Assembly: GCA_944380675.1 (NCBI GenBank)
Contig: CALWIH010000006.1
Coordinates: 1-46,800 of the forward strand
Length of the DNA: 46,800 bases
Origin: an uncultured Clostridia bacterium
Lineage (GTDB): Bacteria; Bacillota; Clostridia; Oscillospirales; Acutalibacteraceae
Reading direction: 5' to 3'
The position numbers were made by a program, and so were the translations under genes. Positions 1-18,292 of this stretch are shown one piece after another. The notes beneath the pieces were generated by a model. The model was not told the origin of the DNA. It searched no databases and was given only the letters and a program-made list of their open reading frames with translations. Within the stretch, counting starts at the first letter, position 1, and every line of letters starts with the position of its first letter.

Positions 1-38
1 GTGAAGACAGCCCAGTTGACAAACATCGGGTACCGCAT
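1..38 (-). CDS. N-terminal fragment of an unidentified protein
   Basis: The window edge cuts a minus-strand gene after about 12 codons. The fragment reads MRYPMFVNWAVF and begins with ATG at 38-36. A GGGAGGAGG ribosome site lies just upstream in the minus sense (about 44-52), which makes this a credible start. Too little is present to name a product; the hydrophobic residues would fit a membrane or secreted protein, but that is a guess. The gene is divergent from the ubiquitin-like island starting at 212. Confidence 0.45.
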   Translation of the reverse strand, partial: MRYPMFVNWAVF

Positions 39-53
39 GGTGATTCCTCCTCC

Positions 54-89
54 CGCCGCGCTTCGCGCGGCGTTTCTTCTTCTATCATA
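54..89 (-). promoter_or_regulatory. Promoter -10 and leader hairpin of the divergent gene
   Basis: On the minus strand a TATGAT -10 element (plus 84-89) lies upstream of a perfect 8-bp hairpin, CGCCGCGC-TTC-GCGCGGCG (54-72), directly before the ribosome site of the gene starting at 38. No good -35 is visible. In the plus sense the hairpin is followed by a T/C-rich tract (TTTCTTCTTCT), so it may also stop antisense transcription. The assignment is from sequence alone. Confidence 0.35.
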
Positions 90-145
90 CCACGCTGCGC
101 GCCCCCGCCTTTTTATTCCGCCGTGTTTCCGGAAAGGCACTCTCC

Positions 146-183
146 TAAAAAAACCGCTGTTCCGAAATCTGATAGAGTAGAAT
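146..183 (+). promoter_or_regulatory. Putative promoter/operator of the ubiquitin-like island
   Basis: The block TAAAAAAACCG (146-156), 11 nt, then TCTGATAGAGTAGAAT (168-183) lies 29 nt before the first gene. An almost identical block with 10-nt spacing lies before the ubiquitin-like gene (2266-2302). The TAGAAT end could be a -10, but there is no consensus -35 at 17 nt. This may be a promoter for another sigma factor or a regulator site. The duplication is the main evidence that it matters. Confidence 0.4.
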
Positions 184-211
184 CACATCAAACAACGAGG
201 AGGAAACAGAA

Positions 212-1249
212 ATGAAGGAACACGGCATGACTCCCGATACGGAAAAGGAGAGAGAGGAAATCATGAACGAGCTGACCAGAACGATGTACGCCGAACTCGA
301 AAACGCGGATCAGGGCGGGGAAAGCTCCGATCCGGGCGAGAAGGCGGAGGATTCCTCCGATAAGCAGGAAATGGAGAGCTTTCTCGATTTTCTTTCCCGC
401 ATGGCCTCCGGCGAGGAGGACGGGGAGGACGATGACGACGAGGAGGAAAACGATGACGACGGCTTCGTCTTTGGCGACGATGAGCAGCCGGAGCGTGAGA
501 TGGATGCCGACGACTACCATAACCGCGCGGTCGATTATGCCCGGGAGCACCGCTTCGCGAAAGCGGTGCAGATCTGCGAAGAGGGGCTTTTCACCTACCC
601 CGACAACGTCGATTTGCTCGCCGACGCCGTCAAATACTGCGCCGAAAACGGCGACAAGCCCCGCGCGCAGAAGCACTATGAAAAGCTCTGCGCCATCATT
701 CCGCGCTCGCGCTTTAACTGGCGCGCGTTCACCTTCTCCCTCGACTACCTGATGCTTGACGCGGAGGAAAACGAGTCGGAATGCCGCTCGCTCCTCGAAG
801 ATTATGCAAAGGCGCTTCCCTTCGAGGAGAAGCGCTTCGTCGCCGCCTCCGAGCTTGAGACCGCTCTCGGCAACCATGAGCGTTCCATGGAGATCCTGCT
901 CGAGGCCGTAAACACGCTGAAAAACGCGAGCCAGTGCAGCCTTCGCCTCGCCGACCTGCAGCTCGAGCGCGGAGAGTTTGAAGAGGCTGTCCGCACAGCG
1001 GACTATGGCATCATTGCCTCGGCGCAGGTACAGCCGTCCATCAACATTCCGTACCTTTATCTTGTGCGCACGCTTGCCGCGGACGCTCTGCTCCGCCAGA
1101 GAAAAGACGGATCCGACAAGGACGAGATCGACGCGCTCCGGGAAACATACAAGAAGCTCCTCGACGTCTTTCCCGTTCTGCGTCCGTACCGGCGCACCAT
1201 CGCCAACCGCATAAAGCTGCTCGATCTGTTCGAGCTCACGGTCGAATAA
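212..1249 (+). CDS. TPR-like scaffold protein with acidic N-terminus (first of two paralogues)
   Basis: A 345-aa soluble protein, the first gene of the island. Residues 1-100 are low-complexity and very acidic, with an Asp/Glu run at about 70-85. Residues 105-345 are helical repeats of TPR character (for example AKAVQICEEGLFTYPDNVDLL). Its layout and length match the last gene of the island (11126-12163): the segments around AVQICEEGLFTYP and VIRLCDFALRIYP are followed by equivalent helices. TPR proteins usually bind partner proteins, so a scaffold or substrate-recruiting role in the tagging system is inferred. The ATG follows AACGAGGAGGAAACAGAA, a strong ribosome site. An AAA+ gene follows after 22 nt. 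The exact TPR family was not determined. Confidence 0.75.
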   Translation: MKEHGMTPDTEKEREEIMNELTRTMYAELENADQGGESSDPGEKAEDSSDKQEMESFLDFLSRMASGEEDGEDDDDEEENDDDGFVFGDDEQPEREMDADDYHNRAVDYAREHRFAKAVQICEEGLFTYPDNVDLLADAVKYCAENGDKPRAQKHYEKLCAIIPRSRFNWRAFTFSLDYLMLDAEENESECRSLLEDYAKALPFEEKRFVAASELETALGNHERSMEILLEAVNTLKNASQCSLRLADLQLERGEFEEAVRTADYGIIASAQVQPSINIPYLYLVRTLAADALLRQRKDGSDKDEIDALRETYKKLLDVFPVLRPYRRTIANRIKLLDLFELTVE

Positions 1250-1271
1250 CCCATAGAAAGGAGACAGGCGC

Positions 1272-2246
1272 ATGAAACCGCTCAGCAAAGAAAAGAGAAT
1301 GATTCTGGAGCTTCCCGACGAGGAAGTCAGCAGGCTTCTGCGCCTCGCCTCCCCGAAGGCTCAGGGGGCCGCCGTCCCCGCGGGAGAGGAACAGAAAAAG
1401 GCAAAGAGCGGCTTTGCACAGCTCAACGCCCTCGTCGGCCTTGCGGAAAGCAAGGAGCAGATCCGCCGGATTGCCGCCTTCCACGCCCTGCGCCGCTTCG
1501 CAGCCTCGCAGGGAAGAAAGCTGCGCAGCGTCTCGTACCATATGTGCTTCACGGGCAATCCCGGCACGGCCAAGACGACGGCGGCGCGCATCTTCGCGAA
1601 GATTCTGCGCGAGGAGGGCGTTCTGACCTCCGACTGCTTTCTCGAGGCGGGCCGGGCGGATCTCATCTCAAAGTATCAGGGGCACACGGCCATTCAGGTG
1701 CGCAATCTCTTCAAGAAAGCGCGCGGCGGGCTGCTGTTCATCGACGAGGCGTATTCCCTGATCGACGGCGTCGAAGGCGGATACGGCCAGGAGGCCGTCG
1801 CGGCGCTCGTCGCGGAGATGGAAAATCACCGCGACGAAACCGTCGTCATCCTTGCGGGCTATCCAAAGGAGATGGAGAACCTGTTCGCGTACAATCCCGG
1901 CCTGCGCTCGCGCGTCCCCTTCACCGTGCACTTTCCCGACTACTCCGTCGACGAGCTGATCGCCATCACGGGCTGCATCGCGAAGGAGAACGGCTACCGC
2001 CTGCGCCCCGACGTTCCTGGCCGTCTGCGCCCCCTCTTCGAGGAGGCGCGCCGCGCGAAGGACTTCGGGAACGGGCGCTTCGTGCGCAATCTGGTGGAAA
2101 GCGCGGAGCTCGCGAGAGCCGCAGCCGTCTACGACAAGCGGGGCCAGGGCATGAGCCTCGACGACTGCTTCACGCTCGGCGCGGACGACTTCGCGCTGCC
2201 CTCCTCCGCGCGCAGGGCGGAGGAAGCGCGCCTCGGCTTCGCGTAA
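1272..2246 (+). CDS. CbxX/CfqX-type AAA+ ATPase
   Basis: A 324-aa single-domain AAA+ protein. Walker A is GNPGTAKTT at about 95-103 (the usual second Gly of GTGKT is Ala). Walker B is LLFIDEA at about 154-160, and a likely sensor/arginine-finger region GLRSRVPF lies near residue 220. The spacing and the IDEAYSL, AGYP and NPGLRSR signatures are those of the CbxX/CfqX (SpoVK-like) group, which form hexamers that remodel protein complexes. It sits 22 nt after the TPR gene and two genes ahead of the E1. An AAA+ beside a conjugation system suggests unfolding or extraction of tagged proteins, or remodelling of the conjugation complex; that is inference. EccA of type VII secretion is a relative, but no WXG100 or EccC gene is present. 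Confidence 0.85.
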   Translation: MKPLSKEKRMILELPDEEVSRLLRLASPKAQGAAVPAGEEQKKAKSGFAQLNALVGLAESKEQIRRIAAFHALRRFAASQGRKLRSVSYHMCFTGNPGTAKTTAARIFAKILREEGVLTSDCFLEAGRADLISKYQGHTAIQVRNLFKKARGGLLFIDEAYSLIDGVEGGYGQEAVAALVAEMENHRDETVVILAGYPKEMENLFAYNPGLRSRVPFTVHFPDYSVDELIAITGCIAKENGYRLRPDVPGRLRPLFEEARRAKDFGNGRFVRNLVESAELARAAAVYDKRGQGMSLDDCFTLGADDFALPSSARRAEEARLGFA

Positions 2247-2265
2247 CAGCGCGGGAGGGCGCCGT

Positions 2266-2302
2266 TAAAAAAACCGGCTTCCCATTTCTGCTAAGCTAAA
2301 GA
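2266..2302 (+). promoter_or_regulatory. Second copy of the island's promoter-like block
   Basis: TAAAAAAACCG (2266-2276), 10 nt, then TCTGCTAAGCTAAAG (2287-2301) repeats the block at 146-183. It lies in the 132-bp gap between the AAA+ gene and the ubiquitin-like gene, the largest gap in the first half of the island. It may give a separate, possibly stronger, transcription start for the modifier and the enzymes after it. The remaining gap sequence (2303-2378) holds only the ribosome site AGAAGGAGAAA. Confidence 0.4.
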
Positions 2303-2378
2303 CAGCAAAAAACCTCCGAGGCGCGGGTACCGCTTCGGGAAGGCAGGGACGTACCGAAAAAAGAAGGAGAAAAAAGCT

Positions 2379-2675
2379 ATGACTAACAATTCCGTTTCCA
2401 CCGATATCGTTAAGGCGGAGGCCTCCTACGAGATTGACCTGCTCAACAAAGCCACCGGCGTCACCTTCCCGAAGGTCGCCGTCTACGGCAACAACACGCT
2501 CGGCCAGCTTCTCGCGGAATACGCCGCCGACATCGGCATGAACCCGAACGACATGGTTCTCTTCGAGAACAAGCGCACCGGCGCGACCACGAGCGACAAG
2601 AACGAAACCGTCTCCGGTCTCGGCCTGACGGAGAACGACATTCTCGCCGTGAGCGACAACGCGCGCGTCGCGTAA
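2379..2675 (+). CDS. Ubiquitin-like beta-grasp modifier protein
   Basis: A 98-aa protein with the beta-grasp pattern: a beta hairpin at about 17-37 (YEIDLLNK ... FPKVAVYG), a helix at 40-52 (TLGQLLAEYAADI), then short strands ending in LTENDILAVSD. Central gene order (modifier, zinc protein, E1, E2, JAB) marks it as the ubiquitin-like substrate of the conjugation enzymes. It resembles YukD/EsaB-type prokaryotic ubiquitin-like proteins in size and lacks Cys. The C-terminus is SDNARVA with no Gly-Gly, so either the chain is joined through a non-Gly residue, is trimmed first (the JAB protease is a candidate), or is used non-covalently. Start ATG follows AGAAGGAGAAA. The fold is inferred from pattern, not from a search. 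Confidence 0.75.
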   Translation: MTNNSVSTDIVKAEASYEIDLLNKATGVTFPKVAVYGNNTLGQLLAEYAADIGMNPNDMVLFENKRTGATTSDKNETVSGLGLTENDILAVSDNARVA

Positions 2676-2691
2676 GTAAGGAGAGCGGCGT

Positions 2692-3096
2692 ATGGAATGG
2701 GTTGTTCTGACAGTGCTTGTCGCTGCCGCCGTCTGGGGAATTACCAGACTGACGCGCTCCAAACGCGCGAAGCAGACGTCGCTTCCCCCCAGGGCACGCG
2801 GCGTTACAGCATATACGCCGCGCCCCGTCACGCTGCGTCCGCCGTACGCCGGCAGCAGTCCCGCCGCCCTTCCTCCCCGCCGTTCCGCGGCGCCGGCAGC
2901 AGCCGGCGGAACAACGCGGCTCGCGGCGGGGGCCCCGGGGCCGCGCGGCGTGAGGCCCGATCAGTTTCCCTGCTGCCCCTTCGACAAGCAGAGAAACGAG
3001 CCCGGCAAGCCGCAGGCCATTTTCTGGGACAGCAAGTCCGGCTGCTACGTCTGCTCCCGCGGCCACCGCTTCAAAAGCAACGGCACCATCATGTAA
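2692..3096 (+). CDS. Membrane-anchored Cys/His (treble-clef-like) protein, candidate E3 or adaptor
   Basis: A 134-aa protein with three parts. Residues 2-19 form one hydrophobic helix followed by basic residues (TRSKRAK), so an N-terminal membrane anchor with the rest probably in the cytoplasm. Residues 28-92 are a Pro/Ala/Arg-rich linker with two LPPR motifs. Residues 93-134 carry Cys94, Cys95, Cys118, Cys121 and His125 (FPCCPF ... CYVCSRGHRF), a likely single-zinc ribbon or treble clef. A small zinc protein between a modifier and its E1/E2 could act as an E3 or anchor the machinery to the membrane. Neither is shown by sequence alone. Start ATG follows AAGGAGAGCGGCGT, 16 nt after the modifier. 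No named family recognised. Confidence 0.65.
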   Translation: MEWVVLTVLVAAAVWGITRLTRSKRAKQTSLPPRARGVTAYTPRPVTLRPPYAGSSPAALPPRRSAAPAAAGGTTRLAAGAPGPRGVRPDQFPCCPFDKQRNEPGKPQAIFWDSKSGCYVCSRGHRFKSNGTIM

Positions 3097-3107
3097 GCAC
3101 ACATCTC

Positions 3108-3143
3108 TTCGGCGGACAGGCGCTTTTCCGTTTGTCCGCTGAA
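3108..3143 (+). promoter_or_regulatory. Intergenic hairpin ahead of the E1 gene
   Basis: TTCGGCGGACA (3108-3118) pairs with TGTCCGCTGAA (3133-3143) at 10 of 11 positions across a 14-nt loop. It fills the 67-bp gap between the zinc-protein and E1 genes. There is no T-run, so it is not a typical terminator. It may be an mRNA processing or stability element that sets different levels of modifier and enzymes. Confidence 0.4.
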
Positions 3144-3163
3144 AATCTGCAAAGGAGCTTCTC

Positions 3164-4435
3164 ATGGATCATCTGTACAATCCCCTCAAGCTCTCCGTCT
3201 ACCGCTCCCTGTTCCGCGATAAGAGCGTGCTGATTCTCGGCGGCGGAGCCGTGGGCTCCCACGAGGCGGAATACGCCGTCAAGATGGGCTTCGGGCGCGT
3301 CGACATCCTCGACTTCGACACCTTCACGCTTGAAAACGCCGCGAAGCACAGCGCGCTGGTCCGCACGCCGGAGGATGTGGGCAGGAACAAGGCGCAGTGC
3401 GTCTCCGACCGGCTCCTGCCGCTGCTCGACGAAGGCGGCGCGACGAACGGCATCGACGCGGATCTCTGCCTCATCGGCCCCGAGGCCGTCGCGGCGTACG
3501 ACTTCGCCGTCCTGTGCCTCGACAATTTCGCGGCGAAGATGCTCTTCAACGAGCTCTGGCTGCAGATTCCCCGCGAGCGCCGCCCCATCGTCATCATGGA
3601 CGGCACGCACGACGAGATGGCCCAGAGCGTCATGCTCGACGGCGAGGAGTTCTGTCTGCGCTGTCTCGTCGACGAATCGTGGCTCGAAGCCTCCGCCGTG
3701 CGCACCTCGTGCAGCGGCCCGCAGGTGCGCCGCATCGACGGCGAGGACGCGATTGTGCGCACCTCGAACCTCGCGAGCTCCCTCGCGGCGATCCTCTCGG
3801 CGGAGCAGCTGCGCGCGGCGGTGCTCGGCGCGCCGGACGCGATGAACCGCCGCCTGACGTACACCGCCTATCCGCACCTCGAGCTCAGCGCGGCCCATCC
3901 GATGAAAAAGCGCGGCTGCCCCGGCTGCTCCATCGAGCCGCCGCATGACATCCGCTTCCTTCCCGGCAGCGTCCTCGACGTTACGCTCGGCGAGGCCTTC
4001 CGCGCCATCGCCGCGGCGCTCGGAACCAAGGCGTTCGAGCTTGCCGTGCACCGGCTCAGCTATAAGAATATCGTCTATTCCGGCTACATTGCCGAGGCGG
4101 TCTGCCCGTCGTGCGGGAAGCCCGTGGCGGTAAAAAAGCACGAGGGACGCGCGTTCCACAGCGACCTGTTCTGCGGGGAATGCCGCGCGGCAAAGCGCCC
4201 GCCGCAGGAACGCACGGCGCACGAGGAGGGGCGCGTTCTGCGCGCCTTCACGCCCGGAGCGTGCGGCGAGCTCCTCGGCGAAACGCTGTTCTCCCTTGGC
4301 TACCCGCTCGGCGCGCATCTCGAGGTCATCGAGCGCAACGGCGCGCTTGACTTCCTCGACGAGGGAAAAATCCGGACGACCGTGTTCGCCTTCGAGGGCG
4401 ACGCGGAGAAGATGCACACCGTCCGCAGTCTGTGA
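3164..4435 (+). CDS. E1-like ubiquitin-activating enzyme (ThiF/HesA fold)
   Basis: A 423-aa protein. Residues 20-200 form an ATP-binding Rossmann domain: GGGAVGS at 26-32, acidic Asp50 in DILDFD, Asn58 in ENAAKH, and Arg74/Lys76 in VGRNKA, all positions conserved in the ThiF/E1 superfamily. Three CxxC pairs (FCLRC near 165, GCPGC near 250, then VCPSCG and FCGEC near 315-345) point to zinc binding, usual in E1s. The expected role is adenylation of the modifier C-terminus and passage to an E1 Cys, then the E2. The catalytic Cys is not certain; Cys in RTSCSGP near 187 is a candidate. The C-terminal 80 residues are not recognised and may be the modifier- or E2-binding part. E2 follows after 18 nt. 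Start ATG follows AAAGGAGCTTCTC. Confidence 0.88.
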   Translation: MDHLYNPLKLSVYRSLFRDKSVLILGGGAVGSHEAEYAVKMGFGRVDILDFDTFTLENAAKHSALVRTPEDVGRNKAQCVSDRLLPLLDEGGATNGIDADLCLIGPEAVAAYDFAVLCLDNFAAKMLFNELWLQIPRERRPIVIMDGTHDEMAQSVMLDGEEFCLRCLVDESWLEASAVRTSCSGPQVRRIDGEDAIVRTSNLASSLAAILSAEQLRAAVLGAPDAMNRRLTYTAYPHLELSAAHPMKKRGCPGCSIEPPHDIRFLPGSVLDVTLGEAFRAIAAALGTKAFELAVHRLSYKNIVYSGYIAEAVCPSCGKPVAVKKHEGRAFHSDLFCGECRAAKRPPQERTAHEEGRVLRAFTPGACGELLGETLFSLGYPLGAHLEVIERNGALDFLDEGKIRTTVFAFEGDAEKMHTVRSL

Positions 4436-4453
4436 GAAGGGAAGGGATACCGT

Positions 4454-5083
4454 ATGAGTTTTTCGACCACCTATGTAGATGAAACCGGCAGATCGAGAGA
4501 GGTCTCAATCTCCGACTCGGATTCGCATGAGGCGCTGCGCAACGACTACAACGCTTTGATGAAGACGTACAATCCGAAGTATGTGACGATTGAGCGCCTG
4601 CAGGCCGCTCCGGGAGAGGAGCTGCACCTCCGCGTTACGGTGCACGCGCCGTCTCATTACCTGACCTCCTCGAACACCACGAACCCGCAGCCGTGCAGCT
4701 CGATGTCCGTCGAGGTGGCCGCGTGCCTCGGCTATCCGCTCAAGAGCGTCTCGGCCTGGTATCCGAAGGATCGCTTCCTCGCGAGTCCGAACGTTTTCCG
4801 CTCCGGCAAGGCGTGCATCGACCGCTGGATCCCCTTCAAGAGCTCGCTTCTGACCGTCGTGGAGAAGCTTGTGATGGACATGATTCACAATCCCGTCGTC
4901 ACGCGGTACGATTCGATGGCAAACAGCAGCGTTGAGGACTGGCACAAAAAGAACGCGGCAAAGCATCTGTTCCCCACCATGGAGCCGAAGCTTCTGTACG
5001 CCGTGAATCTTACGCCTCTGCCGCCGCGGCGCACGGCCGCCGTCGTTCCGGCTCCGCAGCCGCTGCCGCCGAGACGGCGCTGA
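4454..5083 (+). CDS. E2-like ubiquitin-conjugating enzyme (UBC fold)
   Basis: A 209-aa protein with the E2 layout. An N-terminal helix (EALRNDYNALMKTY, 26-39) is followed by strands at 45-68, a Tyr-Pro turn (GYPLKSVSAW) and the active site VFRSGKACIDRW with Cys121. Helices after it run SSLLTVVEKLVMDMIHNP (130-147), exactly where E2s carry their post-Cys helices. The role would be to accept the modifier as a Cys thioester and pass it to a target. The last 25 residues are a Pro/Arg tail holding two LPPR motifs and ending PLPPRRR, absent from ordinary E2s and shared with the flanking zinc and JAB proteins. It sits 18 nt after E1 and 14 nt before JAB. Confidence 0.88.
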   Translation: MSFSTTYVDETGRSREVSISDSDSHEALRNDYNALMKTYNPKYVTIERLQAAPGEELHLRVTVHAPSHYLTSSNTTNPQPCSSMSVEVAACLGYPLKSVSAWYPKDRFLASPNVFRSGKACIDRWIPFKSSLLTVVEKLVMDMIHNPVVTRYDSMANSSVEDWHKKNAAKHLFPTMEPKLLYAVNLTPLPPRRTAAVVPAPQPLPPRRR

Positions 5084-5097
5084 AGGGAGGAATCCAC

Positions 5098-6063
5098 ATG
5101 AGAGAGAGCTGTTCCGCCGCGCCGCCGCTGCCCCCGAGGCAGCCGCGTGAAGCGAAGCCGCGCCGCACGATGAGCGTAAAGAACATCTACGGCCTCATCG
5201 ACTCGAAATGCGGCCCGATCTCCGTTTCGGAGCATCACGGAAAGGGCAGAAACAAGGTCTTCTTCCTGCCCGAGGCGGCGAGGGAGCTTTGCCAGATCGT
5301 CTCCTACGGCAGACGCTCGCCGATGAACCGCCTTGAGCAGAAATTCGCGGGCTTCGGTCATTTCCTCACGACCGACGCGGGGGATGACTGCATCGTCGTC
5401 TCGCACTTCATCCAGATTCACACCACGAACCGCAGCACCATCTCGGCGAACAATCTCGGCGCGAACGGCGAGTCAGACAGCCTCAACCTCCTCGAATACT
5501 ACCGCGAGGAATACCTCGAGAACGAGCGCGAGTGCAACACGGACGCGCAGGGGCGCTGCGTCGACCCGTTCCTCGAGCTGTGCGGGCCGAGCGAGTTCGT
5601 TCTCGAGGGACACACGCACCCGAATCTCGGCGTGTTCTGGTCGCGCGCCGACAGAACGAGCGGCTCGGCGCGCGCCGCCGTCTCGCCCGTGTGCATCTTC
5701 GTCTGCGATCCGATCCGCCGCGAGATGCTCGGCTGCACCGGCAAGGACTTCCGCCCCGCGGAGGTGATCGTCTGCGAAAACGAAACGCGCGGCCGCCGCC
5801 AGAAATGCAGACGCCCCGCCCCCGAAGCGGAGAATCCGGATCCTGTCGCCGCACCGCAGACCGATCCGCGCGAATCTCCCGGCCGGGATGCGCCGGAGAC
5901 TCCTCCCCCGCACCCCTCGGCCGGAAAACTCATCTCCCTGTGCGACTCCTACCTCGCGCTGCCCGGCGTCGGCGGTCATGTCAGGAAGCGCGTCCGGCGC
6001 GGCAAGCTGCGGCTCAAGATCGACCTCATCCTGCCCGTCCCGAGGAAGGGCGGAGAGCCGTGA
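5098..6063 (+). CDS. JAB/JAMM metalloprotease (deubiquitinase-like)
   Basis: A 321-aa protein. The JAMM zinc signature is complete: EGHTHPNLGVFWSRAD gives His172-x-His174 and Asp185 with Ser182 before it. JAB enzymes cut isopeptide bonds after ubiquitin-like proteins or trim modifier precursors. Here it would reverse tagging or mature the modifier, whose C-terminus lacks Gly-Gly. The first 25 residues are a Pro/Arg-rich extension containing PLPPRQ. The JAB domain spans about 26-225. A Pro-rich linker (about 240-285) leads to a basic C-terminal segment (HVRKRVRRGKLRLKI). The stop TGA overlaps the GTG start of the next gene (GTGA), which suggests translational coupling. Start ATG follows AGGGAGGAATCCAC. 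Confidence 0.88.
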   Translation: MRESCSAAPPLPPRQPREAKPRRTMSVKNIYGLIDSKCGPISVSEHHGKGRNKVFFLPEAARELCQIVSYGRRSPMNRLEQKFAGFGHFLTTDAGDDCIVVSHFIQIHTTNRSTISANNLGANGESDSLNLLEYYREEYLENERECNTDAQGRCVDPFLELCGPSEFVLEGHTHPNLGVFWSRADRTSGSARAAVSPVCIFVCDPIRREMLGCTGKDFRPAEVIVCENETRGRRQKCRRPAPEAENPDPVAAPQTDPRESPGRDAPETPPPHPSAGKLISLCDSYLALPGVGGHVRKRVRRGKLRLKIDLILPVPRKGGEP

Positions 6064-7022
6064 ACGGCGCGCCGGAGAAGCTCGGGGCGCGGTTTTACCG
6101 CTCCCAGCTTGGGGAAAAGGCGGCGGCGGCGTACGACCTTCTCGAGGCGCACTGCGAGTCGAAGAATTACGCCCCCTGCGTGCCGCTGCCCGTCCCGGGC
6201 TGCACGTTTGACGACGCCTTCGCCGCGTACTGCGCACTGCAGAGCGATCGCCCCGACTTTTTCTGGCTCGGTTCATCGGTTCGCTGGCTCCCCGGCGCAC
6301 GGCTCGAGATGAGCGTCCTCTACACGCCGGACGAGATCAGCCGCCTCAGCCTCCTGCTGCGCAAGTACCTGTGCCGCCTGCTGCGCGGCACGGCGGGGCT
6401 GCCCGCGGTCGAGGCGGAGCGGCTCGTCTACGAGCGCATCGCGAAGCGGCTGCACTACATCGACCACGACGACGAGCGCGATCACAACGTCGTCGGCCCC
6501 CTGCTCTCCGCCTCGTGCGTCTGCGAGGGAGCCAACGACCTGCTCCTGCTGTGCCTGCGCCGGCTCTCCATTCCGTGCGTGAAGGTATCGGGGCGGTCCG
6601 CGCGCGACCGCAGGCACTGCTGGACGATCGCCTGGGTGGACGGCGAGCCGGCGCACTGCGACGTGACCTGGGATCTCGCGCCGGACGGCGACGTCTTCTT
6701 CGAGTACTTCAACCTCAGCGACCGGCAGATCGGCCGCGACCATTTCGGCTTTGAAAGCCCGGCGCTCCCCCGGTGCACCTCGGAGGAGCTCGGCTTCTAC
6801 AGCGCGCCGAACAGGAGCTTTTCGACGCAGCAGGACTTCTCGCGCTTCCTTATGCGCCGTCTGCGCGTGCGCCCGCCCTCTCCCGTCTGGGCGCGGCTGG
6901 AATTCGCACGGACAGGGGACGGCGTCCGCCGGGCTGTCGAGGAGGCGCTGTCCGCCGGCGGGCCGAACGTGCGCGTCTCCATCCACAGCGGCCTTCGCGC
7001 TGCCGTCATCACGCCGGTATAG
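6060..7022 (+). CDS. Transglutaminase-like cysteine protease-fold protein
   Basis: A 320-aa protein from GTG at 6060, inside the JAB stop (GTGA overlap). The frame is open further upstream, but that part is antisense to nothing useful and lacks a ribosome site. Residues 115-215 hold a transglutaminase-like core with the full triad: Cys155 in SCVCEGAND, His186 in RHCWTIAW and Asp201 in CDVTWD. Such domains act as peptidases, amidases or cross-linkers. In this island it could be a second isopeptidase or could join the modifier through a Gln-Lys bond; the sequence does not decide. Residues 1-110 and 225-320 are not recognised. No signal peptide, so cytoplasmic. Confidence 0.8.
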   Translation: MNGAPEKLGARFYRSQLGEKAAAAYDLLEAHCESKNYAPCVPLPVPGCTFDDAFAAYCALQSDRPDFFWLGSSVRWLPGARLEMSVLYTPDEISRLSLLLRKYLCRLLRGTAGLPAVEAERLVYERIAKRLHYIDHDDERDHNVVGPLLSASCVCEGANDLLLLCLRRLSIPCVKVSGRSARDRRHCWTIAWVDGEPAHCDVTWDLAPDGDVFFEYFNLSDRQIGRDHFGFESPALPRCTSEELGFYSAPNRSFSTQQDFSRFLMRRLRVRPPSPVWARLEFARTGDGVRRAVEEALSAGGPNVRVSIHSGLRAAVITPV

Positions 7023-7049
7023 GCGGAAAGAAGTAAGGAGCAAACCGAC

Positions 7050-7799
7050 ATGAATGAAATCAGCGCATTGCGTCCCGCTGCTTTTCCGGTACAGAAGACG
7101 GGGCGCGCGCATCAGCAGTGCGGCGAAGACTGCGAGGACGTGGTTCTCATCAGGGAAACGGAGCACTTCTGCTTCTACGGCCTCGCCGACGGCCAGAGCA
7201 AAAAAGCCCACTGCGCCGCAGGCGCGAGGCGTTCCCTCGAGCTCGTCGCCCGGTATCTGGAGGAGAAGGGGGTGGACGCCCTCTCCGCCTATCCGTACGA
7301 GGACGAGATCCAGTATGAGCTCATCCGGGGAATCCGCTCGAGCATCCGCGAGCTCGCGGAGGAGGCCGGGGCCAGCGGCGAGGAGTTTTCCTCCACGCTT
7401 CTCGCCCTCGCCTTTCATCCGGAGAGCGGAGCGTACGCCGCCGTTCATCTCGGCGACGGCTGCCTCATCGGCGTACCGCACGAGGGCGCGCCCGCCGTCC
7501 TGAGTCCGCCGGACTGCGGCGCCCTGCCGCATCAGACGTGGCTGACGACCTCCGGCGGAGCGCTGACGCATCTGCGCCTTGCCTTCGGCGACGCCCGGCG
7601 GTACCGGCGCTTCGCCCTGCTCTCCGACGGAGCGGACTTCGTGTGCAGCGGCAGGCGGCTGACGCGCGAGGGCCTGGCTCTCCTCGAGAGCGGGAAGCGC
7701 GAGGACTTCGGCGAAATGTGGGCAAACGCCGCCCCGCGCGACGACGCGAGCTGCCTGACGGTTGATCTGCCGAAGCCGGAACATTTCAGGGATATTTGA
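7050..7799 (+). CDS. PP2C-family Ser/Thr protein phosphatase
   Basis: A 249-aa single-domain PP2C. The metal-binding acidic motifs occur in order: EDCEDV, then YGLADGQS (the DG motif), VHLGDGCL, ALLSDGAD, and the closing PRDDASC, which replaces the usual DNxT. These bind the two catalytic metals. It would remove phosphates placed by the kinase encoded at 9513-11087. Paired PP2C/Hanks kinases are common in bacterial cell-surface and secretion regulation. The 27-nt gap to the transglutaminase gene contains AAGTAAGGAG. After the stop there is a promoter, so the next three genes may be made separately. Confidence 0.88.
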   Translation: MNEISALRPAAFPVQKTGRAHQQCGEDCEDVVLIRETEHFCFYGLADGQSKKAHCAAGARRSLELVARYLEEKGVDALSAYPYEDEIQYELIRGIRSSIRELAEEAGASGEEFSSTLLALAFHPESGAYAAVHLGDGCLIGVPHEGAPAVLSPPDCGALPHQTWLTTSGGALTHLRLAFGDARRYRRFALLSDGADFVCSGRRLTREGLALLESGKREDFGEMWANAAPRDDASCLTVDLPKPEHFRDI

Positions 7800-7829
7800 G
7801 AAAATAAAGGGGGAATCGGAGCCATCTCC

Positions 7830-7860
7830 TTGCCATTTTCCGTAAAATAGAATAAAATGG
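7830..7860 (+). promoter_or_regulatory. Internal sigma-A promoter with overlapping inverted repeat
   Basis: TTGCCA (7830-7835), a 17-nt spacer and TAAAAT (7853-7858) make a good sigma-A promoter 28 nt before the 534-aa gene. The inverted repeat CCATTTT (7833-7839) / AAAATGG (7854-7860) overlaps both promoter elements, as a repressor operator would. It would let the unknown protein, kinase and second TPR gene be made apart from the conjugation genes. Confidence 0.65.
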
Positions 7861-7885
7861 TGAAAATGAAAGGGGGAGGACGAGA

Positions 7886-9490
7886 ATGCTGGAAAACTAC
7901 ACGCAGTCTGCCAACGAGCGCTGCTTTCAGCTGATCGACGCTGACGCCGGAGCCATCTGGGCGGACATTGAAAGCACGCCGGAGGACACCGACTCGGCGC
8001 GGTGGAGAAAAAAGCTGGAGGCCATCGCGAGGGAATACTCGTTCTCCAGCCGCTTTGCCCTGATGCGCATTCTGTTTGCGCGCGCGGCGGAGCTCGATCT
8101 GACCCGCCGCGAGACGGAGAGCGCCCTCTCGGGCGGGGAGGAGCCGGCGCTCGTCTGCGGAGACTGGCGCTTCCCCCTCTCCGCGCTGACCATCGACCGC
8201 GCCGAGACGCTCTCCCCCGAGGACAACCTGCGCTTTGAGCAGCTGCTGCGCGAGACGGCGGGGCAGTCTCCGGACGCCGACGAGGCGGCGAACACGGCGC
8301 TTTTGCGCCGGGCATGGTACGACGAGGAGAGCGCGATCCTCGCGGGGGAAGCTCTCCTGCCGCCCGACCGGCGGGAGAACAGGCGAAAGCTCGCGGCGGA
8401 GCGCGCCGCTCTGCGCCAGGCGTACCGGCCGCTGTTCCGCACGCGGCTGACGCGGCGCGAAGCGTTCCGCCTCGGCCATCTGCTGCGCTTCTCGCTCCAG
8501 GAAATGCAGTGGTTCCTGCTGCGCGTCTTCGACGCGGAGGACGGCTTCCAGTACAACCGGGCGGAGGATCTCATCGAGGCGTACGGCTTCCTGACGGACG
8601 CCGGCCAGGGGACGGTCGACGCGCTGCACGCGGTGTACGCGGCGCGCGCTCCGCAAATCAAAAAAAAGCCGCTCGGCGAACGGGCGGCAGACTGGACGGC
8701 GGACGCCGCGGGCTCGCTCGGCGGGCTCGCGCAGCGCCGCCTTTCCCGTCCTGACGAGGGCGACGAGCCCTTCCTCGGCTGGCTGCTCGAGCAGGCGCCG
8801 TGTCTCGATCTCCCGTCGCGCACGGCGCTGGCCGTGTTCCGCAACCTCGCCGTCTATGCCTGGCACCTCGCGCTGGAGGAGGAGGATCCGCCCATCGAGT
8901 CGGATCTCGTGCGCTGCGTGCGCGAGATCACCGGCTCCCCGGAGGAGGACGACGCGGCGCGGGAGGCCCTGTACGAAAACGGACAAATTTCCGCGAAGCG
9001 CTGCGCGAAGGTCGCCGGGGACATCATGGCGGCGAACCTCGATCTGTCGTTCTCCGACCAGACGGATCGGGCAAAGGCGTACCACGTCATCACCGCGAAG
9101 GAGGACGGGACGCCCACCTCGACCGGCGGCGTCAACGCGAGCCGCACGCGCCTGCAGGAGCTTCTGCTGGGCGAGCTGCAGGTGGAAAAGAGCGATTTGC
9201 TCTATCTTCTCTGGTTTGCCGCCAACCAGTGCTGGAGCTGGAACGGCGCGTCGCAGCCCGGCGAAATTTTTGACAGAATGGCGGATTTTGTCGAGTGCGC
9301 GTGGACCTGCCTGGAAAACGCGCTGCTGCCGCCCTTCTACCCGCCGCACCTGCTCGAGCAGAGTATGCTGCTCTCCATCGCGTGCGCCGGAAAAACAGGC
9401 GAAACCGATATCACCCCGGCGGAGACGTACGAGCTTCTGTGCAGCTCCCTGATTGTGCCGAGAAGGCGCAGAAAGGACGTCCCGTCCTGA
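7886..9490 (+). CDS. Protein of unknown family in the ubiquitin-like island
   Basis: A 534-aa soluble protein, mostly predicted helix, rich in Glu, Arg, Leu and Trp, without signal peptide or membrane helix. No nucleotide-binding or catalytic motif was recognised. The central part (about residues 160-350) has runs such as FRLGHLLRFSLQEMQWFLLRVF and FLGWLLEQAPCLDLPSRTALAVF. The C-terminal 100 residues have WFAANQCWSWNGAS and end in a basic RRRRK tail. It has its own promoter and lies 22 nt before the kinase gene. Position suggests a substrate, adaptor or sensor for the kinase. Start ATG follows AAAGGGGGAGGACGAGA. Codon use matches its neighbours. Confidence 0.7.
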   Translation: MLENYTQSANERCFQLIDADAGAIWADIESTPEDTDSARWRKKLEAIAREYSFSSRFALMRILFARAAELDLTRRETESALSGGEEPALVCGDWRFPLSALTIDRAETLSPEDNLRFEQLLRETAGQSPDADEAANTALLRRAWYDEESAILAGEALLPPDRRENRRKLAAERAALRQAYRPLFRTRLTRREAFRLGHLLRFSLQEMQWFLLRVFDAEDGFQYNRAEDLIEAYGFLTDAGQGTVDALHAVYAARAPQIKKKPLGERAADWTADAAGSLGGLAQRRLSRPDEGDEPFLGWLLEQAPCLDLPSRTALAVFRNLAVYAWHLALEEEDPPIESDLVRCVREITGSPEEDDAAREALYENGQISAKRCAKVAGDIMAANLDLSFSDQTDRAKAYHVITAKEDGTPTSTGGVNASRTRLQELLLGELQVEKSDLLYLLWFAANQCWSWNGASQPGEIFDRMADFVECAWTCLENALLPPFYPPHLLEQSMLLSIACAGKTGETDITPAETYELLCSSLIVPRRRRKDVPS

Positions 9491-9512
9491 TTTTGCAAGG
9501 AGGAGGATGCGC

Positions 9513-11087
9513 ATGACGACACGCGAACCGCTTGCGAGCGGACAGACCGTCACGATGCCGAACGGCTCCGTCTACACCGTCGGCGGCGTCATCGGAGAGG
9601 GGGGCTTCTCCCTGCTCTACAGCGTCACGACAAAGGGCGGCGCCTCGGAGGCGGTCCTCAAGGAATACTATCCCGCGGACGGCGCACGCCGCGAGGGAAC
9701 CGCGGTGCTCCCCGCCCCCGGCTGCGAGGAAGCGTTCGCACACGGCCTGCAGTCCTTCCGCAGCGAGTCGGCGCTCGGCGGCGCGGCGCGGCGCGAGAGC
9801 TTCCAGATCGTCCCGTTCGCGCTGTGCGACCCGGAGCGCGGCCTCGCCGTGCTGCCCCGCTGGAGCCGGGACATGGCGTCGTTTCTCGACGTCGCGAAGC
9901 GCTGGGAGGAGGACGCGCCGCCCTCCTCCGATCCGTGCTTTTCCGATCTCGGGCGCGTCGTGCAGGCACTGCGCATGACGGAGAGCGCGCTCTGCGCCGT
10001 CTCAGCCGTGCACCGCCTCGGCCTGCTTCACCTCGATCTGAGCGCGAGGAACGTCGTGTGGGCGGGAACGCAGGACGGCGGCAGCGCGGCCTTCCTCACC
10101 GATTTCGGCTGCGCCCTCGATCTCGCCTGCGCCTCCCCCCTCGCCCCGGCGCTGCTCTCGTACAGCCCCGGCTTCGCCGCGCCCGAGCTGCGCCGCCCCG
10201 GCTCGCCCCTGACGCCGGCGGCGGACGTATACTCCGCCGGCGTGCTGCTCTATCTCCTCTGCGCGGGCAAGCGGGCGACGTCGAACTGGCACATCAGCGA
10301 TCTGACAGGCTTCCGCGGCCGCGCCGTGCGCCGCGAAACGGAGACGCTGCGCATCCCGCGCCGCATCCGCGAGGAGCTCGGCGCCCTTATTCTCAATGCC
10401 TGCGCCGCCGATCCCGGCGAGCGGTACCGGACGGCGGAGGAAATGCGGCAGGCCGTCTCCGCCCTGCTGCTGCACATCCCGCGGCGTCCCGTCAACGAGG
10501 ATCCGACAAACGCCTTTACCCTCGCGTCGCTCCGCTCGATGCTCGCGGGAAGCGAAGGCCCGCAGGACTCCTGGGCGCAGGAGCTCGCCGACCGGCGCGG
10601 CGCGGCCGTCCCCATCCCGGAGGACGCGCGTCTCCCGCTGACGCGCCGGACGTTTGCGGACGGCGAGGAGCTTCTGCGGGCGCTTCTGCCGGACGCGGCC
10701 TTCCGCCTGCTGGAGGAGCGCGCGCGGCACGAGCCCGCCTTCCCGCTCTCCGGCGTTCTCTCCGGGCGCTGCCCGGACGAATGGAAGCAGGTGATCGTTT
10801 CCGCGTTTCTCGGAGACGGCGGCAGCCGCTTCCGCGAGCTGTGCGTGCACTGCGAAGCGGCGCTCGACGCCGAGGGCCTGTTCCTCGCGGACGCGGGGCT
10901 GCTCTTTTCCCTTCTCGGCGAAGAGGGCGAGCTGCTCCACCGCTGCTGCAGGCGCTGCGATATGCGCGGCGCGCCGTATCTCGGCCTCGCGCTGATTACC
11001 CTGTTCGCCCTTCTCGGCGAGAAGGGCTTCTCCCGCCTGTTCCCGGACGAGCGCGCCGCGTGCCGGTGGATCCGCCCGTACCGGTGA
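9513..11087 (+). CDS. Hanks-type Ser/Thr protein kinase
   Basis: A 524-aa protein. The kinase domain covers about 20-300: Gly loop GEGGFSLLY (28-36), Lys50 in AVLKEYY, the catalytic loop HLDLSARNV with Asp175, the DFG triplet at 197-199 (LTDFGCAL), AAPEL at 222-226 and DVYSAGVLLYLL. HRD is changed to HLD, which keeps the base. The kinase therefore looks active. Residues 320-524 are a helical region of unknown family, with no transmembrane helix, so a soluble kinase. ATG at 9513 is preferred over 9507, because AAGGAGGA at 9497-9504 is 8 nt from it. With the PP2C at 7050 it forms a likely phosphorylation switch acting on island proteins. Confidence 0.88.
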   Translation: MTTREPLASGQTVTMPNGSVYTVGGVIGEGGFSLLYSVTTKGGASEAVLKEYYPADGARREGTAVLPAPGCEEAFAHGLQSFRSESALGGAARRESFQIVPFALCDPERGLAVLPRWSRDMASFLDVAKRWEEDAPPSSDPCFSDLGRVVQALRMTESALCAVSAVHRLGLLHLDLSARNVVWAGTQDGGSAAFLTDFGCALDLACASPLAPALLSYSPGFAAPELRRPGSPLTPAADVYSAGVLLYLLCAGKRATSNWHISDLTGFRGRAVRRETETLRIPRRIREELGALILNACAADPGERYRTAEEMRQAVSALLLHIPRRPVNEDPTNAFTLASLRSMLAGSEGPQDSWAQELADRRGAAVPIPEDARLPLTRRTFADGEELLRALLPDAAFRLLEERARHEPAFPLSGVLSGRCPDEWKQVIVSAFLGDGGSRFRELCVHCEAALDAEGLFLADAGLLFSLLGEEGELLHRCCRRCDMRGAPYLGLALITLFALLGEKGFSRLFPDERAACRWIRPYR

Positions 11088-11125
11088 CGAATCAACCATA
11101 CACAAATGAAGGAGGAAGTATCAGG

Positions 11126-12163
11126 ATGGATGAAGAAATGATGCGTAAGCTTGCGCTCCTGCAGGCCATGAAGGACAATGAGGAGGAGGACGTCTTTGTC
11201 TCTTCCATCGATGAGGCGGACTCGTTCGTCATCCTCCACTCCGACCTTTCCGACGCCCGCGTCCGCAGACAGCTTGTGGACTTCGTCACCGACGAGGAGA
11301 ACCACGTCTGGGGCTCCTCGGACGAATACTGGAATCTGATGATGCGCTTTTTCGGCGTGCGCGATTACTATTCCGTGATCCGGCTGTGCGATTTCGCTCT
11401 GCGGATCTATCCGCGCAACGCCGACCTGCTCGCCTGTATGATCCGCGCCTGCGGAGCGTGCGGCAACTACGCGCTCGGCGCAAAGTGGATGGAAAAGGCG
11501 CAGGAGCTGGAGCTCCGCTGGTGGAGCTACCGCCTCTTCCTGTATTCCATTGACTTTCTGCAGGAAAAGCTCAAGAACCATGTCGGCGACTCCGACGAAA
11601 CACTGCAGAAGGGTCTCGACATGGCGAACGATTTCATCCGGCATTTCCCGTATGACGAGCACGGCTACAACCAGCGCGCCGAGCTTTTGATCATCGCGAA
11701 CCGGCGCGAGGAAGCCATCCGCGACCTGCAGAATTCCATCAACGATGTGCAGCCCGATCCGAACGACAGGCATTCGAGCCTTGTCACGGCGCAGTGCTGC
11801 GTGACGCTGCTCAATCTGCTCGACGACAGCAACGACTATCCCCTCATCATCGACATCGCGAACAAGGGCCTGCTCAACACGACGCAGGAGCAGCCCTCCT
11901 CCTCGATCGGCTTTTTCATGTACCGCAAGGCGCTCGCGCTCGACGCGATAGCCGTCCTGGACAACTTCTCCAATCCGAACAAGATCAGAGAGGCGCTGCT
12001 CACCTATCAGTCGGCGTACGATCTCAACCAGGACCGCGAGTACGCCCGCACCATCGAGCGGCGCTACGCCATCCTCTACGCGCACGCCGACGCGAAGGAC
12101 AACATCGGCCGCCTCGTGCGCCGTCCGCTCTTCGTTTCCGAGGAGAAGGCTGCGAACGACTAA
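11126..12163 (+). CDS. TPR-like scaffold protein (second paralogue)
   Basis: A 345-aa helical-repeat protein, the last gene of the island. From about residue 65 it parallels the first gene: YWNLMMRFFGVRDYYSVIRL then CDFALRIYPRNADLLACMI, then KWMEKAQELELRWWSYRLF, and the same overall length. Its first 45 residues are acidic but much less so than the paralogue's. Two related TPR proteins bracketing one operon suggest an old duplication with different partners, for example one for the conjugation half and one for the kinase half. Start ATG at 11126 follows GAAGGAGGAAGTATCAGG, 38 nt after the kinase stop. A longer upstream open frame is a shadow of the kinase. A terminator follows after 16 nt. 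Confidence 0.78.
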   Translation: MDEEMMRKLALLQAMKDNEEEDVFVSSIDEADSFVILHSDLSDARVRRQLVDFVTDEENHVWGSSDEYWNLMMRFFGVRDYYSVIRLCDFALRIYPRNADLLACMIRACGACGNYALGAKWMEKAQELELRWWSYRLFLYSIDFLQEKLKNHVGDSDETLQKGLDMANDFIRHFPYDEHGYNQRAELLIIANRREEAIRDLQNSINDVQPDPNDRHSSLVTAQCCVTLLNLLDDSNDYPLIIDIANKGLLNTTQEQPSSSIGFFMYRKALALDAIAVLDNFSNPNKIREALLTYQSAYDLNQDREYARTIERRYAILYAHADAKDNIGRLVRRPLFVSEEKAAND

Positions 12164-12179
12164 GCAAAAAGAAGGAAAC

Positions 12180-12224
12180 CGCCCGGCTCTTCCCTGCCTG
12201 CGCAGAGGAAAGCCGGGCGTTTTT
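12180..12224 (+). terminator. Rho-independent terminator of the island
   Basis: CGCCCGGCT (12180-12188) pairs with AGCCGGGCG (12211-12219), with further TCC/GGA pairing inside, followed by TTTTT. It lies 16 nt after the second TPR gene and marks the end of the transcription unit. Confidence 0.88.
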
Positions 12225-12248
12225 CGCAGAAAAATGCGCCTCCCCCCT

Positions 12249-12276
12249 TTGCAAACAGCCGCCGGGCGCGTATCAT
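12249..12276 (+). promoter_or_regulatory. Promoter of the oxidoreductase gene
   Basis: TTGCAA (12249-12254), a 16-nt spacer and TATCAT (12271-12276) form a sigma-A-like promoter. The perfect palindrome GGCGGCGCGCCGCC (12307-12320) follows in the leader, 24 nt before the ATG, and may be an operator or a hairpin. Confidence 0.55.
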
Positions 12277-12344
12277 AGAAGGCAGAACAGGCGGCAGGCC
12301 GCAGAGGGCGGCGCGCCGCCGGAAAATGAAAAGGGGAGAGACAT

Positions 12345-13310
12345 ATGAAATTTCGATTCGGTGTGATGGGCGCGGCGAAGATCGCCCGCAAGTTCTGCGA
12401 GGCCGCCGCGCTGTGCGGCTGCGAGGTCTGCGCCGTGGCGAGCAAGAGCGAGGAGCGTGCGAAGGCCTTCGCCGAGGCGAACGGCATCGGCCGGTATTAC
12501 GCGGACTATGAGGCCATGCTCGAGGCGGAGAAGCCGGACGCCGTCTACATCGCGACGACGACGAACGACCACGCGCGGCTGTCGCTGCTGTGCATCCGGC
12601 ACGGCGTTCCCGTGCTGTGCGAGAAGGCGGCGTACGAGAACAGCGAGCAGGCGCGCGCCGTATTCTCGCTCGCGCGGGAGAAGGGCGTCTTCGTGATGGA
12701 GGCCATGTGGAGCCGCTTCCTGCCCGCGCTGCTGACGGCGAAGGCGTGGGTCGCCGAAGGAAGGATCGGCGCGCCGGCCATCGCGCAGTGCGGCATCGGC
12801 TTCGTCGCGCCGGAGGGCGCGGACAACCGCTATTTCAGCCCGAAGCTCGGCGGCGGCGCGGCGCGCGACATCACCGTCTACGCGTACGAGCTCACCGGGT
12901 ACGTCCTCGGGCAGGAGGAGAAGGAGATTGCGGCGTGCGCCGTCCGCGGGGAGACGGGCGTCGACGTCTCCGACGCCGTTCTCGTCCGGTACGAAAGCGC
13001 CGTCGCGAACCTCACCACGAGCTTCGTCTCCCGGATGGAGGAGCGCCTCACCGTCTGCGGCGACAAGGGGCGGCTCGTCGTGCCGAGCCCGAATTTCGGC
13101 GCCGAATGCCTGCTCTACGGGCCGGACGGCTCCCTGCTCGAGCACTTCACCGACACCGTGACGAAGAACGGCTTCACCTACGAGATTGAGGAAGTCGTAC
13201 GCTGCGTCCGGGAGGGAAAAACGGAGAGCGCGATCGTCCCGTGGCGCGACACGCTCGCCTGCGCGGCGCTCTTCGATCAGATTGACGCCTCGCTCGCGCG
13301 GCAGGGCTGA
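12345..13310 (+). CDS. Gfo/Idh/MocA-family NAD(P)-dependent oxidoreductase
   Basis: A 321-aa two-domain oxidoreductase. The N-terminal Rossmann domain begins FGVMGAAKIARKF and holds YIATTTNDHARL and the family signature CEKAAYEN, where the usual Pro of CEKP is Ala. The C-terminal alpha/beta domain has MEAMWSRFLPA and GGGAARDITVYAY, close to the dihydrodiol dehydrogenase-like subgroup. Substrates in this family are mostly sugars or inositols, so the reaction cannot be fixed. It has its own promoter and is convergent with the AraC gene 20 nt downstream. Start ATG follows AAAGGGGAGAGACAT. Confidence 0.88.
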   Translation: MKFRFGVMGAAKIARKFCEAAALCGCEVCAVASKSEERAKAFAEANGIGRYYADYEAMLEAEKPDAVYIATTTNDHARLSLLCIRHGVPVLCEKAAYENSEQARAVFSLAREKGVFVMEAMWSRFLPALLTAKAWVAEGRIGAPAIAQCGIGFVAPEGADNRYFSPKLGGGAARDITVYAYELTGYVLGQEEKEIAACAVRGETGVDVSDAVLVRYESAVANLTTSFVSRMEERLTVCGDKGRLVVPSPNFGAECLLYGPDGSLLEHFTDTVTKNGFTYEIEEVVRCVREGKTESAIVPWRDTLACAALFDQIDASLARQG

Positions 13311-13329
13311 CGCGTCCGGCGCATGAAGC

Positions 13330-14133: not shown

Positions 14134-14204
14134 ATCGCTGCGCTTCCTTTCCCGCTCTCGCGAGCAGATTACGGAAATCTCCATATTTTTTCCGCTTTCT
14201 TCCC

Positions 14205-14233
14205 TTGTGCGTTTTCCCTCGTCCCGGTATGAT
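14205..14233 (+). promoter_or_regulatory. Promoter of the alpha-fucosidase gene
   Basis: TTGTGC (14205-14210), 17 nt, TATGAT (14228-14233). It lies in the 155-bp divergent region between the AraC and fucosidase starts, where the AraC protein would be expected to bind. No clear direct repeat was seen. Confidence 0.6.
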
Positions 14234-14288
14234 GATGACAGGATAAGGCGGCAGACCGCCGCACGACAACACAGGGAGGAGATTTCTG

Positions 14289-15605: not shown

Positions 15606-15617
15606 AAAATTGCATTT

Positions 15618-18058: not shown

Positions 18059-18105
18059 TGCCGTCACTCCCTTCTCCCATGTGCATGATTTTTTCCTTTC
18101 GTCTC

Positions 18106-18187: not shown

Positions 18188-18229
18188 CTGTCCCTCCGGA
18201 TTTTCACCGGTGCCGGACAGCATACGGAA

Positions 18230-18262: not shown

Positions 18263-18292
18263 CTCACCGCCTCCTCTCTCTTTTCTGTCTTC

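Follow-up and report, generated by a model that had tools for sequence, protein, structure and literature searches.

At its left end, a stretch of DNA from an uncultured Clostridia bacterium raises two questions: whether a row of twelve genes encodes a machinery for attaching a ubiquitin-like protein (Ubl) to other proteins, and whether all twelve serve it. The stretch (hereafter the window; 46,800 nt) is the whole of contig CALWIH010000006.1, one of 188 in a 2.7-Mb genome, and the host is a gut bacterium. To our knowledge, most of what is established about Ubl conjugation in bacteria comes from the Bil system and from the cyclic oligonucleotide-based antiphage signaling system (CBASS). An initial annotation of the window had described twelve co-directional open reading frames, and these are indeed all present on the + strand at 212-12163, with 211 bases before the first of them. 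It had also listed as intact Cys121 of an E2, a JAMM motif, the Gly loop of an E1, and the HLD and DFG motifs of a Ser/Thr kinase, all of which are found as described, the JAMM residues being H172/H174/S182/D185 and the loop GGGAVG. The locus is probably a prokaryotic Ubl conjugation cassette with a core in the order Ubl, zinc (Zn) protein, E1, E2 and JAB, followed by a transglutaminase-like enzyme and accompanied by a TPR protein; it is Bil-like yet distinct. This reading is drawn from the conserved order of the core, invariant catalytic residues, dN/dS values of 0-0.25, PDB matches, the order of elements in an E2 model, and the recurrence of an LPxR motif. Ubl, E1, E2 and JAB stand together in the cluster, and the catalytic residues of the enzymes are intact.

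The core is kept in three lineages. Within the genus, a search with E1 retrieved two of six genomes, the window's own and that of a sister species (G940), whose 12,853-base contig aligns to 3755-15654 of the window with 93% DNA identity. The second lineage, relative (i), is the IMG/VR mobile-element record 3300029305_007709 (G1325; 45,670 bases), which carries, all in the same orientation, a tandem Ubl (187 aa) and counterparts of the Zn protein (43% identity), E1 (60%), E2 (62%), JAB (50%) and the transglutaminase (40%). The third, relative (ii), is a genome of another family of the same class (G1543), found by an E2 profile at E 4.6e-39 (2 of 295 genomes matched at E <= 0.01, one genuinely); it has Ubl (33%), Zn protein (53% over 36 residues), E1 (47%), E2 (43%) and JAB (39%), with no TPR or AAA+ gene directly upstream, on a 6,465-base contig that stops inside JAB. 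The gene order Ubl-Zn-E1-E2-JAB is the same in all three. Between the window and the sister species, dN/dS (Nei-Gojobori; eight cluster genes, that is all but TPR1, AAA+, Ubl and the Zn protein) is 0.22 for E1 (226 of 423 codons), 0 for E2 (5 synonymous and 0 non-synonymous differences), 0.23 for JAB, 0.14 for the transglutaminase, 0.18 for PP2C, 0.24 for a 534-aa protein, 0.25 for the kinase and 0.17 for TPR2, compared with 0.09 for a neighboring GFO/IDH gene. The eight genes are therefore translated and kept, under looser constraint than their metabolic neighbor except for E2.

E2 (4454-5083, +) carries Cys121 and, eight residues earlier, Asn113. Both are invariant in an alignment of four sequences, and their spacing is that of HPN...Cys in the UBC13-type enzymes matched; the His of this triplet is replaced by Ser, and in relative (ii) its Pro by Val. 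Up to W163 the protein aligns with 'D-P-L-A-N...W' of UBC13-type enzymes. PDB matches are weak but in register (E 0.27-0.43; yeast Ubc13 at 0.41, and a UBC E2 at 0.27 with a four-row profile). An AlphaFold2 model from the four sequences, of medium confidence (mean pLDDT 67.8, pTM 0.66), predicts a helix at 21-38, strands within 44-102, and helices at 132-143 and 158-165, an order that fits the UBC fold. Two LPPR motifs lie in the tail.

E1 (3164-4435, +; 423 aa) contains one ThiF domain (Pfam ThiF 3.9e-19). In the three-lineage alignment a GxGAVG loop, the Cys pairs C164/C167 and C252/C255, and C183 within RTSC(S/T)GPQ are invariant, and there are additional Cys pairs at C314/C317 and C337/C340. 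Cys183 is a candidate for the thioester Cys. In PDB the E1 profile matches the E1/ThiF superfamily over the first 150-odd residues, with tRNA TcdA-type dehydratases best (1.7e-9), followed by Uba1 and UBA3. This membership of the ThiF/MoeB superfamily, like the lack of a terminal glycine in Ubl, would suit a cassette in which Ubl is not conjugated and the E1- and E2-like proteins carry out sulfur transfer or other adenylation chemistry. Such a role is improbable, since a UBC-like E2 with invariant Asn and Cys and a JAMM peptidase are present, and Pfam detects no sulfur-metabolism family among the twelve proteins.

Ubl (2379-2675, +; 98 aa) has a single domain and ends in SDNARVA. It is 65-69% identical to the tandem repeats of relative (i), both of which end in SDNAGVA; the Ubl of relative (ii) has TDDGSVAGGEEL. 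The C-terminal Ala might stand in for glycine. Because Ubl ends in ARVA rather than in a conjugatable glycine, the locus is filed as a conjugation-type cassette and not as a proven conjugation system. When the Ubl of relative (i) was compared with PDB, the best match was BilA, and its tail pairs with the NAGVA of solved BilA chains (E 0.015 and 0.017).

This tail bears on the possibility that the locus is a variant of BilABCD, an antiphage system that puts its Ubl onto phage structural proteins. BilABCD is an ISG15-like conjugation system in which, according to the review PMC11354881, BilB has a CEHH motif and BilD a pair of adenylation domains. The same four activities, Ubl, E1, E2 and JAB, are found in one operon here, the SDNAGVA of relative (i) resembles the NAGVA of BilA, and the record of relative (i) carries an ABC-3C-type CTD11 protein, a C5 methylase and an HNH-nuclease-like protein. 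However, the Glu and the two His of CEHH (Cys, +6 Glu, +8 His, +13 His, in the numbering of that review) are replaced in the window E2 by Pro127, Lys129 and Thr134; E1 has a single ThiF stretch with extra Cys pairs instead of inactive plus active adenylation domains; the Ubl of the window is not of the two-domain type; and a Zn/membrane protein and a transglutaminase are added. PADLOC, which like NCBIfam was run on the ten proteins other than the TPR proteins (Pfam was run on all twelve), assigned E1 to E1-E2 models (among the 25 of 33 matches listed; best 4.4e-10), and gave no match at E <= 0.1 for E2, JAB or Ubl. Moreover, the right-hand neighbors of the cluster look metabolic by eye, and one of them, GFO/IDH, is confirmed by Pfam. 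A BilABCD variant is thus unlikely, and the initial claim of a complete modifier/E1/E2/JAB set unlike BilABCD is borne out by the E2 motif, the E1 architecture and the unit conserved in three lineages.

JAB (5098-6063, +), which begins with PPLPPR, reaches only 0.063 with Pfam Prok-JAB; its JAMM residues H172-T-H174-x7-S182-x2-D185 and E80 are invariant in the three lineages. In PDB at E <= 10, 13 of the 14 sequences matched by the JAB profile are of the Rpn11 type (best 0.014) and one is unrelated; the single sequence gives no match at this threshold. The transglutaminase-like thiol enzyme (6060-7022, +) overlaps JAB, from a GTG start that was chosen manually and is supported by the alignment. 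Its triad C155/H186/D201 is invariant in three sequences, one of them from the sister species, and Pfam Transglut_core matches it at 0.0026 and its counterpart in relative (i) at 3.7e-8.

The Zn protein (2692-3096, +) consists of a hydrophobic N-terminal segment (hydropathy maximum 1.76, at residue 3), two LPPR motifs, and a C-terminal Cys/His zinc-ribbon-like module. The module and one LPxR motif are found in all three lineages; the hydrophobic segment is absent from relative (ii). For this protein, for Ubl and for the 534-aa protein, the Pfam matches are all sub-threshold. RING-type prokaryotic Ubl operons are defined by a binuclear RING E3, and the Zn protein has one Cys/His site with four or five ligands, so that the window lacks a RING. 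In gene set and logic it is like the Ubl/E1/E2/JAB (and RING) operons that comparative genomics has predicted in prokaryotes (Iyer 2006, PMC1779556); phosphatase, AAA and TPR are not mentioned in the available part of that text. FtsH-ternary conflict systems, as described in PMC7159879, comprise Ubl/E1/E2/RING/JAB with Ubl and E2 in one protein and vWA/MoxR/FtsH. They share with the window a full Ubl ligase set next to AAA+ and effector genes, but the window has neither a Ubl-E2 fusion nor vWA/MoxR/FtsH. Similarity to Cap2/Cap3 of CBASS type II is found in the E1 domain (PDB 7tsq and others) and in JAB. Type II CBASS is defined by a CD-NTase and a fused E1-E2, and its Cap3 is a JAB. In the window, by contrast, E1 and E2 are separate, and Pfam shows no CD-NTase among the twelve proteins.

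Several points weigh against conjugation as the function of the cassette. No substrate or E3 has been identified, and the window Ubl terminates in -RVA with no glycine, the glycine position varying as R, G and S across the lineages. Taken alone, the window Ubl matches nothing in PDB better than E 0.2 (two HAUS1 sequences at 0.2, Ddi1 at 0.39, BilA at 1.5), and that of relative (ii) has one match, polyubiquitin, at E 0.31. In all three lineages, E2, which has no Pfam match in the window, and JAB fall short of the Pfam cut-offs. A three-row E2 profile finds no PDB match at E <= 1, and the E2 model is poorest at the active-site loop, where residues 111-128 have pLDDT < 50. Finally, the known lineages number just three, and one of them is represented by a 6.5-kb contig that breaks off within JAB.

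Do all twelve genes form one dedicated, phospho-controlled system, as had been proposed at first? Downstream of the transglutaminase lie, all on the + strand, a PP2C phosphatase (7050-7799; Pfam PP2C_2 1.2e-20), the 534-aa protein (7886-9490), which belongs to no known family (Pfam sub-threshold 0.034; no PADLOC or NCBIfam match at E <= 0.1), and a Ser/Thr kinase (9513-11087; 524 aa; Pfam Pkinase 2e-14), in which the Gly loop, Lys, HLD and DFG were all located. Upstream of Ubl lies an AAA+ ATPase of the SpoVK/CbbX/EccA group (1272-2246, +; Pfam AAA 2.6e-15), which in NCBIfam matches spore_V_K (2.3e-75), cbbX (6.9e-63) and EccA (8.5e-59), all below the model cut-offs. PADLOC assigned the kinase to kinase models, and its matches for the ATPase and PP2C are weak. 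A tblastn search at E <= 0.01 matched none of these four proteins in three stretches of the 45.7-kb relative (i), which keeps the core, although a more diverged counterpart could escape this search. The core is thus retained as a unit in three lineages, a single twelve-gene system is not supported, and the 'phospho-control' set looks like an accessory, local add-on. Local coupling of PP2C, the 534-aa protein, the kinase and TPR2 with the core is possible, because in the window as in the sister species they adjoin it, and purifying selection acts on them. The twelve-gene set is not described in any title or abstract among the literature matches listed.

The two TPR-like proteins first annotated are encoded at either end of the cluster. 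TPR1 (212-1249, +; 345 aa) is confirmed by Pfam TPR_19 (2.8e-7). TPR2 (11126-12163, +) has no Pfam TPR match at E <= 0.1 yet is a distant paralogue of TPR1, which aligns with the sister-species TPR2 orthologue at 22% identity (E 8.7e-15). In relative (i), a TPR1 homologue (36% identity) is encoded away from the core next to a type IV secretion system coupling-protein gene, and a TPR2 query retrieves the same protein (24%). A DNA search of the sister-species genome (86% complete) with window positions 1-3000 found only an AAA+ paralogue (70%). An AAA+ match in this species does not mark a second cluster: it is a solitary gene of the SpoVK type which, by eye, has ribosomal protein genes nearby. 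The gene encodes a 563-aa SpoVK-type AAA+ protein (L010 8742-10433) whose N-terminal half contains, by eye, a stretch like the C-terminal domain of RNA polymerase alpha.

The kinase, phosphatase and ATPase also bear on whether the cluster belongs, as an accessory locus, to a type VII secretion system (T7SS). T7SS variants with Ubl, a kinase, a PPM phosphatase and sometimes AAA+ are described in PMC11217815; the AAA+ protein of the cluster resembles EccA, and the genome does have a T7SS (a WXG100 match above cut-off, and an FHA/FtsK-type ATPase by eye). Nevertheless, Pfam shows neither WXG100 nor FtsK/EssC among the twelve proteins, and the T7SS genes lie elsewhere, on contigs that by eye encode a separate Ubl-like protein, kinase and PP2C. 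The parts of PMC11217815 consulted name no E1, E2 or JAB; its T7SSc-j clusters share Ubl, kinase and PPM phosphatase with the window, which lacks their TsxA/TsxC and adds E1/E2/JAB. A T7SS accessory role is therefore highly improbable, and it was rejected as the principal explanation because of the separate T7SS genes. One of these loci (L037, contig C78, 2591-11098) encodes a 1491-aa FHA/FtsK-type ATPase, the WXG100 match, a YukD-like Ubl and PP2C, all but WXG100 recognized by eye; another (L038, contig C123, 178-6870) encodes a WXG100-like protein below cut-off, together with a kinase with a TPR-like tail and PP2C, the latter two by eye.

How might the parts of the Ubl conjugation cassette be held together? 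The Zn protein, E2 and JAB (664 aa together) contain five copies of the motif [LM]P[PATED]R, whereas the nine remaining proteins of the cluster have none. The same three proteins carry five copies in relative (i) and four in relative (ii). Among 33 picked proteins of relative (i), it occurs also once each in an SPFH protein, a 183-aa protein, a HerA-like ATPase and a 501-aa protein; among seven picked proteins of relative (ii), it is confined to the Zn protein, E2 and JAB. The background, made up of predicted genes from the rest of the window and from six further loci of the genus, with L038 and L008 left aside, holds 5 copies in 34,657 aa, which gives a Poisson p of 6e-8. Since the motif was picked after it had been sighted, its recurrence in the relatives carries more weight as evidence. 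A domain that would bind the motif was not found. Its placement in the Zn protein, in the tail of E2 and at the N-terminus of JAB suggests a common docking site.

A bolder and rather doubtful extension is that the cassette represents an undescribed class of Ubl conjugation, with a P-[LM]-P-x-R hub on a membrane scaffold, Ubl used via its C-terminal Ala, and lineage-specific plug-in modules. The carriers of the hub motif would be, tentatively, the Zn membrane protein, E2 in its tail and JAB at its N-terminus, to which one relative would add SPFH and a small putative membrane protein; the modules, no less speculatively, would be kinase/phosphatase/AAA+ in the window and SPFH, HerA-like ATPase and ClpP in relative (i). 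In relative (i), the transglutaminase is followed by an SPFH-Zn-ribbon protein, the 183-aa protein with hydrophobic segments, a Zn-TPR-like protein (these last two named by eye), the HerA-like ATPase, the HNH-nuclease-like protein, ClpP, a 274-aa protein and a conjugative coupling protein. Beyond these lie the TPR1 homologue by a second coupling protein, the C5 methylase, the CTD11 protein, and DUF2800/Enc34 phage-type genes. Tagged proteins could be substrates of ClpP. In this record (L034), the HNH/colicin-DNase-like protein (7162-7863) and the stand-alone ClpP (6140-6727) are encoded downstream of the Ubl cassette. Directly upstream of the tandem Ubl (17679-18314) is a YbjN-domain protein (1.3e-7), with a weaker second match to a peptide-binding-chaperone model.

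Judging from the protein families and invariant residues, E1 would adenylate the C-terminus of Ubl and hold Ubl on a cysteine, for which Cys183 is the candidate. Ubl would then be handed to Cys121 of E2, which would join it to substrates. JAB, perhaps with the transglutaminase-like thiol enzyme, may release Ubl from precursors and strip it from targets; precursor processing is suggested because the Ubls of the relatives, one in tandem and one with a GGEEL tail, would have to be cut before they could serve as single units. The LPPR-type motifs and the hydrophobic N-terminus of the Zn protein may assemble conjugation and deconjugation at a membrane-bound hub, and AAA+, PP2C, kinase, 534-aa protein and TPR2, as a locally added module, may extract tagged proteins or gate the reaction. 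As for the role of the cassette, conflict with mobile elements or protein quality control would be our guess. Its core unites an E2 whose Asn-to-Cys spacing is eukaryote-like with an E1 that stands alone and has a single domain, a membrane Zn protein and a thiol enzyme. This core is found on a chromosome and also on a mobile-element record, which bears a ClpP gene as well. It offers a testable route to localization and regulation of bacterial ubiquitin-like tagging, and to tags ending in non-glycine residues.

Relatives of the cassette are rare. Prokaryotic Ubl operons reportedly predicted by Burroughs in 2011 may well contain close ones. An E2 search matched 1 of 250 genomes of the family, the window's own, and E1 searches matched 1 of 391 in the class (its own), 4 of 345 in the order (its own and three; cut-off E <= 1e-10) and 13 of 398 in the phylum (its own and twelve), in overlapping samples drawn from larger groups and with single-protein searches that miss distant relatives. 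The other E1 matches (E 4e-11 to 5e-14) were not accepted as relatives: 5 of the 15 (L004, L006, L011, L015, L022) are ThiF/MoeB-type by eye, and nine further phylum matches were judged from coverage (124-158 of 423 residues) and scores alone, L005 being left unread. An E2 profile match with one internal stop (L058, E 0.009) was taken as chance, its surroundings unread. The E2 profile had no match in 293 genomes of a further family, in a search that included no positive control. Plasmid scans with the window E2, the 534-aa protein and the Ubl of relative (i) led nowhere, as did a phage scan with the E2 of relative (i) and IMG/VR single-protein scans with E2, the 534-aa protein and Ubl; four haloarchaeal ThiF matches from a plasmid E1 scan, covering 16%, were set aside. 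Three IMG/VR profile scans recovered the known record and nothing further. A scan of genome contigs with the window E2 as the only query found one locus, at 100% identity over E2.

The cluster contains promoter-like elements on the + strand, at 160-181 before TPR1 and at 2279-2300 before Ubl, the latter with AAAAAAACCG upstream in common with the first copy. A weak third copy, a sigma-70-like site with 10 of 12 matches, lies before the 534-aa gene (7830-7858) and fits the element with 2 mismatches. The window holds five occurrences of the pattern, two of them elsewhere, against 0.18 expected, a figure that is not independent because the pattern was built from the copies. At <= 3 mismatches the element is absent from L008, L034 and L059 and has one match each in L035 and L037. 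The positions hint at three transcription units: TPR1-AAA+, Ubl to PP2C, and 534-aa protein-kinase-TPR2.

At the right-hand edge of the cluster, the neighboring genes are present in two genus-mates (G078 and G941), and the cluster is not beside them there. The GFO/IDH gene faces an AraC-type gene in the window (12345-14295), whereas the two are co-oriented in both genus-mates (L055 13-1520; L056 11203-12567), which represents a local inversion at the cluster edge.

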